Of a stretch of DNA of 64,000 nucleotides, positions 37,613-38,984 are shown one piece after another; within the stretch, counting starts at the first letter, position 1; each line of letters opens with the position of its first letter. This DNA is from Haloarcula hispanica ATCC 33960 (lineage in GTDB: Archaea; Halobacteriota; Halobacteria; Halobacteriales; Haloarculaceae). The stretch spans positions 2,418,001-2,482,000 of the forward strand of contig NC_015948.1 in the NCBI RefSeq assembly GCF_000223905.1, in the 5' to 3' direction. Under the pieces are notes generated by a model. It was not told the DNA's origin, ran no database searches, and was given only the letters and a program-made list of their open reading frames with translations. The position numbers and the translations under genes were made by a program.

Positions 37613-37628
37613 ATTAGGCAGTCCTAAA
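37613..37628. promoter_or_regulatory. DtxR-type operator candidate 1
   Basis: Half-palindrome ATTAGG-CAGT-CCTAAA, 6-4-6 spacing. It lies 36 bases upstream of site 2. DtxR/IdeR operators have TTAGG/CCTAA-type ends, and a DtxR-family gene is at 38065. Confidence 0.65.
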
Positions 37629-37648
37629 AACCGCAGACGTTTTATATT

Positions 37649-37664
37649 ATTAGGTTGGCCTAAA
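37649..37664. promoter_or_regulatory. DtxR-type operator candidate 2, over the transcription start
   Basis: ATTAGG-TTGG-CCTAAA. The TATA-like tttatatta (37641-37649) is just upstream and the ATG at 37669 is 5 bases after the site, so the site lies between TATA and the start of an apparently leaderless transcript, a repressor position. Confidence 0.68.
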
Positions 37665-37668
37665 ACAT

Positions 37669-37926
37669 ATGGCAGACGACGGTACTGCGTGCGGGGCACA
37701 AACGGGGAGAGACCCGCGGAGGACTCGATGGCGAGCGGTGTCGTATCGTCGAGGACGACGTCGGCACCCTTCGCGGGGTAGCGGCGTGCACCGCGGGCCA
37801 TATCCCGAGGTCCCAGTGGCGAGCAGTTGCTCGACCGCCCGTGCTCTGCCGACACTATTGGGGGGCGTCTGCCTGATGAGTGGCGACAGCGGTAGCGGGA
37901 TATCGGGGGAACCGAACGATGGGTAA
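37669..37926 (+). pseudogene. Damaged or unusual small gene under DtxR-type operators
   Basis: The promoter and ATG look genuine, but the 85-codon product is odd: MADDGTACGAQTGRDPRRT, then an Arg/Ser-rich stretch, then ALPTLLGGVCLMSGDSGSG. The next frame in the middle (about 37725-37800) reads more protein-like, with LDGERCRIVEDDVGTLRG, which faintly recalls the start of a FeoA-type SH3 domain. One or two frameshifts in a small iron-related gene would explain this. It could also be a real but unknown peptide gene. Confidence 0.4.
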
Positions 37927-38068
37927 ACGCCCGCAACGGTCGCGCGCTCGACTGTGGACTTGGGCCTACGCGGTGGTCTTCGGGACCGGTGAGCAGTCGA
38001 CAGGGGAGTCGACGGCCAGTACGCCCGCAGCAAGCGGCGGGGATGGGGCGGATTCGGCGGAGCGATGA
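37919..38068 (+). CDS. Small open frame coupled to the DtxR-family gene
   Basis: 49 codons: MGKRPQRSRARLWTWAYAVV followed by a Gly/Ser/Thr-rich end. It begins in an ATGGGTAA overlap with the end of the preceding frame and ends in an ATGA-type overlap with the DtxR-family gene. The overlaps on both sides argue for a translated peptide; the basic start plus short hydrophobic stretch resembles a small membrane peptide. No family recognised. Confidence 0.45.
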   Translation: MGKRPQRSRARLWTWAYAVVFGTGEQSTGESTASTPAASGGDGADSAER

Positions 38069-38487
38069 GAACGGCACCGGAGTATTTGCTGGCGATCTAC
38101 ATCGCACAGCACCGGGATGACCCGCCAGTCGCACCGGGAGAGTTGGGGGAGATGCTCGATCGGTCTCCGGCGGCGGTGACGGAGATGTGCCAACGACTTG
38201 CCGAAGACGGTCTCGTCTCCTACGAGCCCTACGATGGGGTGACGCTAACTGAATCGGGGCGCGAGGAAGCCACAGAGTTACACGAGACGTACGTGACCGT
38301 CTCGTGGTTCTTCCGAGGCGTGCTAGATCTCGACGACCACGAGACGGAGGCGATGGAACTGGCCGGTCTGGTCAGTCCGATGGTCGCCGAGCGGTTGGCG
38401 GCTACGCTCCCCTGTGACGCCGGGGCGGAGGGTACACGGGGGGTTACCGATTCAGACTCGACGACCTCCGATGGGGACACTGCGTGA
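38065..38487 (+). CDS. DtxR-family transcription regulator with atypical metal site
   Basis: 140 residues. The N-terminal winged helix is clear: MRTAPEYLLAIYIAQHRDD, VAPGELGEMLDRSPAAVTEM, CQRLAEDGLVSYEPYDGVTL. The dimerisation/metal domain has H73 (ELHETY), H92 (DDHETEAMELAG) and SPMVAERL. The usual C-x-x-E-H ligands of DtxR/MntR-type proteins align with M97, A100 and G101, so the main metal site looks lost. The last 25 residues are Ser/Thr/Asp-rich. The six palindromes around it are its likely operators. It may be a paralogue of the haloarchaeal Idr/SirR regulators. Confidence 0.85.
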   Translation: MRTAPEYLLAIYIAQHRDDPPVAPGELGEMLDRSPAAVTEMCQRLAEDGLVSYEPYDGVTLTESGREEATELHETYVTVSWFFRGVLDLDDHETEAMELAGLVSPMVAERLAATLPCDAGAEGTRGVTDSDSTTSDGDTA

Positions 38488-38512
38488 GGGGGCTGTACTG
38501 TTCAAGACCTAT

Positions 38513-38616
38513 TTTAGGCCGTGCGAAAAGTTGATAGAATTGATATAGTAAAAATTCGGCCTGCCAAGATTCTGGGTTTTGGCGGCCTAAAAGATGATAT
38601 TTTAGGCCTCCCAAAA
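38513..38616. promoter_or_regulatory. Cluster of four DtxR-type operator candidates upstream of the NifU-domain gene
   Basis: Four 6-4-6 sites: TTTAGG-CCGT-GCGAAA (38513-38528), ATTCGG-CCTG-CCAAGA (38554-38569), TTTTGG-CGGC-CTAAAA (38577-38592) and TTTAGG-CCTC-CCAAAA (38601-38616). The last three start 23-24 bases apart, about two helical turns, as in co-operative binding arrays. The final site ends about 40 bases before the NifU-domain start. Confidence 0.62.
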
Positions 38617-38657
38617 ACACCAATTTTATGATATGTTGGTGTGTAGGTAGAGCTGTC

Positions 38658-38984
38658 ATGAGCGCAGAAGGACTCGAACGACAGACGCGTAACTACTTGA
38701 GCAACAACGTCCCGCAGATCCAGCAACACGGCGGCAACTTCGAGGTCCGCGAGGTCGACGAAAGCGCAGGCACAGCCACCGTCGCTATCGGCGGCGCGTG
38801 TTCGGGGTGTGGCATCGCTCCGATGACGATGAAGGCAATCGAACAGCGACTCCCCAAGAGCGTCGACGGGCTCGAAGACGTCGAAGTCGTCCGCTCTGGC
38901 GGACCGCGCGCCGCGGTCATGCCCTCGAAGACCGACGACATGGAGGAGATGGACGAGTACGAGGATTACAGCCCGCCGTTCTGA
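38658..38984 (+). CDS. NifU C-terminal domain protein (Fe-S scaffold)
   Basis: 108 residues from MSAEGLERQTRNYLSNNVPQ. The NifU_C/Nfu domain has GGACSGCGIAPMTMKAIEQ, with the CxxC that holds a bridging Fe-S cluster, and a C-terminal acidic tail ending YSPPF. It probably carries and delivers Fe-S clusters. The four DtxR-type sites upstream predict iron-linked control. A start 30 bases upstream is less likely. Confidence 0.9.
   Translation: MSAEGLERQTRNYLSNNVPQIQQHGGNFEVREVDESAGTATVAIGGACSGCGIAPMTMKAIEQRLPKSVDGLEDVEVVRSGGPRAAVMPSKTDDMEEMDEYEDYSPPF

Follow-up and report, generated by a model that had tools for sequence, protein, structure and literature searches.

A gene for a 140-aa DtxR-like protein (38065..38487, + strand) lies between two clusters of palindromes in the 64,000-nt stretch of the Haloarcula hispanica ATCC 33960 genome analyzed here (NC_015948.1, positions 2,418,001 to 2,482,000; referred to in full as the window), and the second cluster precedes a NifU-domain gene. 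The initial annotation of this DNA viewed the regulator, a small gene, and the Fe-S carrier as a single iron-regulated unit. The locus thus raises the question of which DtxR-family protein acts at these sites and how the regulator and the NifU-domain gene are related.

Palindromes of the window and the iron regulon

The initial annotation listed six palindromes near TTTAGG-N4-CCTAAA, two before the ORF start at 37669 and four before the NifU-domain gene. Their positions were confirmed, as were the spacing of three of them (starts 38554, 38577, and 38601 are 23 and 24 bases apart) and the location of the DtxR-like gene between both clusters, while similarity to the motif was upheld for four of the six. 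One mismatch each was found in the strandless sites of the regulator operon, the distal (37613..37628; ATTAGGCAGTCCTAAA, ATTAGG-CAGT-CCTAAA) and the proximal one (37649..37664; ATTAGGTTGGCCTAAA, ATTAGG-TTGG-CCTAAA), and in S4 (38601..38616, + strand; TTTAGGCCTCCCAAAA, TTTAGG-CCTC-CCAAAA). S1 (38513..38529, + strand) is an asymmetric element, TTTAGG-N5-CGAAAA, which read as 6-4-6 (38513-38528, TTTAGGCCGTGCGAAA) has two mismatches to TTTAGGN4CCTAAA. The strandless sites S2 (38554..38569; ATTCGGCCTGCCAAGA, 4 mismatches) and S3 (38577..38592; TTTTGGCGGCCTAAAA, 3 mismatches) are weak and doubtful; S2 is not conserved in relatives, and S3, which varies among them, is better read in a 6-3-6 format, TTTTGG-N3-CCTAAA (TTTTGG-N3-CCTAAAA). 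The 14-bp half-site TTAGGN4CCTAA is exact at 37613 and 37649, while 38513 and 38601 retain its left half only.

We compared the window with 150 simulated windows of the same dinucleotide make-up. At up to one mismatch the real window contains 3 matches and none of the 150 simulations has any; at up to two mismatches there are 4 matches vs. a simulated mean of 0.34, and all of them fall in the two intergenic stretches described above. Enrichment at up to three mismatches is weak (10 matches vs. 4.65 expected), so that single degenerate half-sites mean little by themselves.

Scanning of the whole genome (three replicons of 2995271, 488918, and 405816 bases), with the reversed sequence as a control, revealed 12 exact copies of TTTAGG-N4-CCTAAA vs. 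0 in the control, and about twenty further sites with one mismatch. With two mismatches (2-3) the count sinks to background (47 vs. 62 in the control), and sites of this class were therefore rejected as regulon members genome-wide. Most motif copies stand 5′ of siderophore-synthesis and iron-uptake genes, so that the outcome named as refuting by the initial annotation, a lack of sites at known iron genes, did not occur; genes behind the sites encode IucA/IucC (two), a class-III aminotransferase (Aminotran_3), Fe-siderophore-type Peripla_BP_2 binding proteins (eight), and an SBP_bac binding protein, among further products. Occurrence of the same palindrome 5′ of these genes indicates that the window sites belong to the iron regulon. 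The motif is also identical to a published 14-bp half-site, TTAGGNNNNCCTAA, proposed as the single-dimer target of IdeR/DtxR in a redefinition of their binding site (PMC8464063), which identifies it as an operator of a known kind. We thus regard it as close to certain that the window sites are genuine iron-regulon operators of this kind. That they are products of chance, or terminator hairpins, is hardly conceivable: the background-level count at 2-3 mismatches would agree with it, yet no simulation matched the observed sites, and the sites at 38513 and 38601 recur in relatives at fixed positions. Conservation of positions across many genera refutes this reading for the four main sites; it would hold for the weak middle sites 38554 and 38577, which are variable, unless these prove to be bound.

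The siderophore cluster at C1:277940-285114 comprises two IucA/IucC genes, an aminotransferase gene, and a binding-protein gene, and a glutamine-synthetase-like gene within it has its own palindrome. At C3:2340026-2342616, a gene for a DUF5059/plastocyanin-type copper-binding lipoprotein is flanked on either side by a palindrome pair spaced at 35 bp. An element resembling S1, TTTTGCACGGCCTAAA (C3:2839635-2839650), is located upstream of the 2Fe-2S ferredoxin gene. It is limited to a subset of Haloarcula, and we make no general claim of an Fe-S-gene element common to NifU and 2Fe-2S ferredoxin.

The 140-aa protein and its DtxR-family relatives

The protein encoded at 38065..38487 consists of a winged helix and a shortened dimerization domain. 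Its N-terminal winged-helix domain is recognized by PF01325 (50.5 bits, cut-off 26), while the score for the metal-binding/dimerization domain PF02742 (17.8 bits) is below the cut-off of 27. Structure prediction yielded, with confidence (pLDDT 84), a fold of the DtxR/MntR type and a tail that is disordered. DR2539 was the best match; for the DR2539, MntR, and DtxR structures (8pw0, 6kta, 1ddn), Foldseek gave a probability of 1.0 and a TM of about 0.65. The fold is thus shared with DR2539, MntR, and DtxR; these are, however, all metal-activated, and their ligands are replaced in the 140-aa protein. In DtxR residue numbering, H79, E83, H98, C102, E105, and H106 correspond to Tyr76, Ser80, Glu93, Met97, Ala100, and Gly101, respectively, and the M10 column is occupied by Glu/Gln. 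Alignment with solved relatives and with paralogs of the protein demonstrated that the replacements hold throughout the clade with few exceptions; none of the ligands M10, H79, E83, H98, C102, E105, and H106, described also for IdeR (PMC10317159), or their MntR equivalents was found at the corresponding alignment positions.

The regulator clade is monophyletic (support 98/96) and includes a Haloarcula amylolytica ortholog (98%). Its C-terminal half is conserved (ETYVTVSWFFR-VLDLDDHE-EAMELAGLVSP) and has no clade-wide cysteine. In some genomes the gene is broken by stops or frameshifts, so that these genomes either can do without it or are losing it. We favor, with reservations, the view that the regulator is a metal-blind DtxR descendant placed under iron control and functionally paired with a NifU-type Fe-S carrier. 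Proteins of this clade could bind an unrecognized ligand.

The palindrome was present in 58 of 60 relatives. Near-complete Haloarcula genomes devoid of the 140-aa regulator still have 6-19 copies of it, and an Idr-type protein of at least 64% identity is encoded in nearly all near-complete genomes, a few distant ones having only weaker relatives. Both the 140-aa protein and this Idr-type paralog have a recognition helix of the SPA-x-x-x-EM type. Persistence of the motif without the 140-aa regulator, the near-ubiquity of the Idr-type protein, and the common helix together make the latter the likelier main binder and our best candidate; a SirR-like 230-aa protein encoded beside a metal ABC permease is a less likely one. 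The assumption of the initial annotation that the 140-aa protein is a metal-dependent binder is not supported, in view of the missing canonical DtxR/MntR ligands and the abundance of the motif in Haloarcula genomes without it.

The Idr-type protein (C3:2264551-2264982) has no equivalents of H79, C102, and H106, and contains invariant cysteines (TYC and CPDCF-x6-C), which suggests cysteine-based iron or Fe-S sensing. Alignment revealed none of these cysteines in the 140-aa protein and its orthologs. Yet another DtxR-like protein of this genome, a third paralog with cysteines and a length of 182 aa, is encoded behind its own palindrome at C2:270217-273067, close to a gene of the ScdA_N-hemerythrin (Fe-S repair) type; a second exact palindrome in this region stands 5′ of a 104-aa ORF.

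Two promoter layouts and the NifU-domain gene

Uptake genes have their proximal site downstream of the TATA box and 5′ of the start codon; it usually stops 1-15 bases short of the ATG. Two-site promoters of this genome have the second site 5′ of the TATA box, at 34-36 bases start-to-start in 8 of 9 pairs. The regulator operon has the same layout, with the distal site at 37613, a TATA-box-like TTTTATATT (37640..37648, + strand) located between both operators and at the same place in relatives, the proximal site at 37649, and the ATG at 37669. The two sites are 36 bp apart and bracket the TATA box, and a spacing of 35-37 bp is kept 5′ of regulator orthologs in most relatives (Haloarcula, Halosimplex, Haladaptatus, and others). 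The proximal operator, in the interval between TATA box and start codon, overlies the position at which a leaderless transcript presumably begins. As judged from its position, this pair appears repression-like.

The NifU-domain gene (38658..38984, + strand) has a different promoter, with a TATA-to-ATG interval free of any site. Its TATA-box-like TTTATGATA (38625..38633, + strand) stands at −33 in most relatives. S4 adjoins the TATA box on its 5′ side, at −57 of the gene. Of 45 NifU promoters, 42, belonging to many genera, carry S4 between −54 and −59; the left half, TTTAGG, hardly varies among them, and the right half is mostly CC(A/T)AA. S1 is located at −145 in the window, and 24 of the 45 promoters have it between −140 and −145. 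Such fixed sites upstream of the TATA box suit activation. Actinobacterial IdeR boxes overlap the start region in repressed genes, and several upstream boxes are typical of activated ones (PMC10317159); by analogy, the NifU promoter would resemble an activated one. As the end of S4 is near the likely TFB site, a protein bound there could equally block transcription.

Specific binding by IdeR is lost when T3 is changed to G3 in every CCTAA repeat (PMC8464063), and this change is present in the right half of S1. When considered as a private site of the 140-aa protein, S1 was missing from all three readable NifU promoters of genomes without this protein, and also from many with it. Three genomes lacking the regulator have kept S4 before their NifU gene, so that the Idr-type protein may act at those promoters.

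The window NifU-domain protein (108 aa) matches PF01106 with 50.4 bits (cut-off 27) and has a CxxC motif (GACSGCG), in line with Fe-S carriers of the NifU C-terminal-domain type. Among 392 genomes of the order, 45 encode an ortholog of it, 118 a member of the regulator clade, and 42 both. The regulator is thus found in 42 of the 45 NifU genomes vs. 76 of the 347 others (p=2e-21), or 20 of 21 vs. 19 of 74 when counted by genus (p=6e-9); related genomes are not independent, so that these p values overstate the co-occurrence, and the varied gene orders constitute a better argument. By listed coordinates, the two genes are neighbors in 28 of the 42 genomes, in tandem, convergent, and divergent orders. 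In Haloarcula amylolytica, sebkhae, argentinensis, and mannanilytica the NifU gene has been lost beside the regulator, leaving a 3′-end stub, and these stubs represent repeated losses within Haloarcula. A second NifU paralog (C3:319089, 44% identical), with no palindrome listed nearby, is widespread, whereas the window NifU gene has a patchy distribution linked to that of the regulator. Common descent and joint transfer may explain part of the co-occurrence. Co-occurrence, varied orders, and NifU losses argue for a functional pairing in which no operon is required. From the unit proposed in the initial annotation, the iron-regulon sites and the link between regulator and carrier were retained, the link extending to many genomes beyond the window; control of all three genes as one unit was not, since the layouts of the two promoters differ and NifU has frequently been lost or stands in another orientation.

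Proposed mechanism, competing readings and the leader region

The analysis established the site family, membership in the regulon, promoter geometry, ligand loss, and co-occurrence; from these features we infer which protein binds where, that the 140-aa protein is independent of metal, and in which direction the NifU gene is controlled. In the explanation that we prefer, to which we assign a probability of about 0.45, the operon is controlled by the Idr-type protein and its product is a metal-blind regulator with the NifU gene as the target. The window sites would be haloarchaeal iron-regulon operators, each a single-dimer box of the DtxR/IdeR type (TTAGGN4CCTAA), and the iron-loaded Idr-type protein would most likely occupy the 37613/37649 pair. 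With these sites on both sides of the TATA box and over the start site, the leader-ORF/regulator operon should be silenced when iron is plentiful, as would the siderophore and uptake genes. With falling iron the operon would be released and the 140-aa protein would accumulate. It has kept the winged helix and an Idr-like recognition helix, and since every known metal ligand is lost, its DNA binding should be independent of metal. The co-inherited NifU-domain gene is its most probable partner target; the sites there are all located upstream of the TATA box at a constant distance, where archaeal activators usually bind. As a result, scarce iron would be steered into Fe-S clusters. Activation of NifU by a starvation-induced regulator is the leading, though tentative, mechanism. 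It is rather doubtful that the two genes form a module, widespread in haloarchaea, whose metal-blind DtxR descendant, induced on iron starvation through its iron-sensing relative, activates a dedicated Fe-S carrier; in such a module the 140-aa protein would bind an operator variant upstream of the TATA box, a starvation relay inside one regulator family.

The main rival is a feedback brake, which we consider unlikely but worth serious attention. Here the starvation-induced 140-aa protein would share operators with its Idr-type relative and act as a metal-independent brake on over-production of siderophore and uptake proteins and on its own operon, with NifU left to the Idr-type protein. The recognition-helix type common to both paralogs, the operator pair on the regulator's own operon, and the persistence of S4 before NifU in genomes without the regulator are all consistent with a brake, yet it leaves unexplained why the NifU genes are nearly confined to regulator genomes and why the two genes are neighbors in every orientation. 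Strong conservation of the C-terminal half, with no cysteine common to the clade, and the tight partnership with an Fe-S carrier could instead mean that the 140-aa protein senses a non-metal ligand or a partner protein, such as the NifU carrier, and responds to Fe-S status and not to iron; as no ligand pocket was recognized, we find this improbable. Least credible of the three is the view of the initial annotation that the protein represses in the Fe/Mn-dependent manner usual for DtxR, binding all sites and autoregulating one iron unit. The above-cut-off winged helix, the DtxR/MntR fold, and the sites on either side of its gene would fit such a repressor, but ligands are missing clade-wide, PF02742 stays below the cut-off, and the motif is common in genomes without the protein.

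Our preferred explanation can be set against known systems. The DtxR/IdeR iron box (PMC8464063; PMC10317159) has the same half-sites and 4-bp spacer, the same overlap of the start region in repression-like promoters, and likewise several upstream boxes in activation-like ones (cf. mycobacterial bfrB). In contrast, the promoters here are of the archaeal TATA type, with pairs 34-36 bp apart around the TATA box instead of an interleaved 19-bp box, and the right half of the sites before NifU is fixed and asymmetric. The network of TroR, Idr, and SirR in Haloferax volcanii and of Idr1 and Idr2 in Halobacterium is named in PMC11349517. As in this network, DtxR-family proteins govern haloarchaeal iron uptake; the 140-aa clade differs in having neither metal ligands nor Idr-type cysteines. 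TroR of H. volcanii reportedly represses uptake, induces storage, and binds a conserved cis motif. The literature searched contained no such iron-economy switch or regulator-NifU pairing. If our explanation is correct, haloarchaeal iron control would combine a sensor (Idr-type) and a sensor-less descendant at a common operator, with the operator's place relative to the TATA box deciding whether a gene is shut or opened. This would be a testable case of a repressor family yielding an archaeal activator, and would give a function to a patchy NifU paralog. Annotation of such genes as a "metal-dependent regulator" would also be unsafe.

The small gene of the initial annotation corresponds to a leader ORF (37669..37926, + strand), which starts leaderless behind the proximal site. 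Its frame is open and its first codons are conserved in relatives, but past these it is doubtful as a gene, being poorly conserved and fast-evolving, with frame changes between close species. No Pfam match was obtained. A decayed feoA/feoB in 37669-38065 was rejected, as there was no Pfam hit and relatives have a variable leader ORF. More distant genera have a short ORF whose end coincides with the regulator start codon, and translational coupling appears to fit the leader ORF better than an enzyme. A second small ORF (37919..38068, + strand; MGKRPQRSRARLWTWAYAVVFG...), with no Pfam match or other known family, overlaps the leader-ORF stop and the regulator start. Its product (PxRxRARLWxWxYAxxFG) is conserved better than the leader ORF and recurs before the regulator in other genera.
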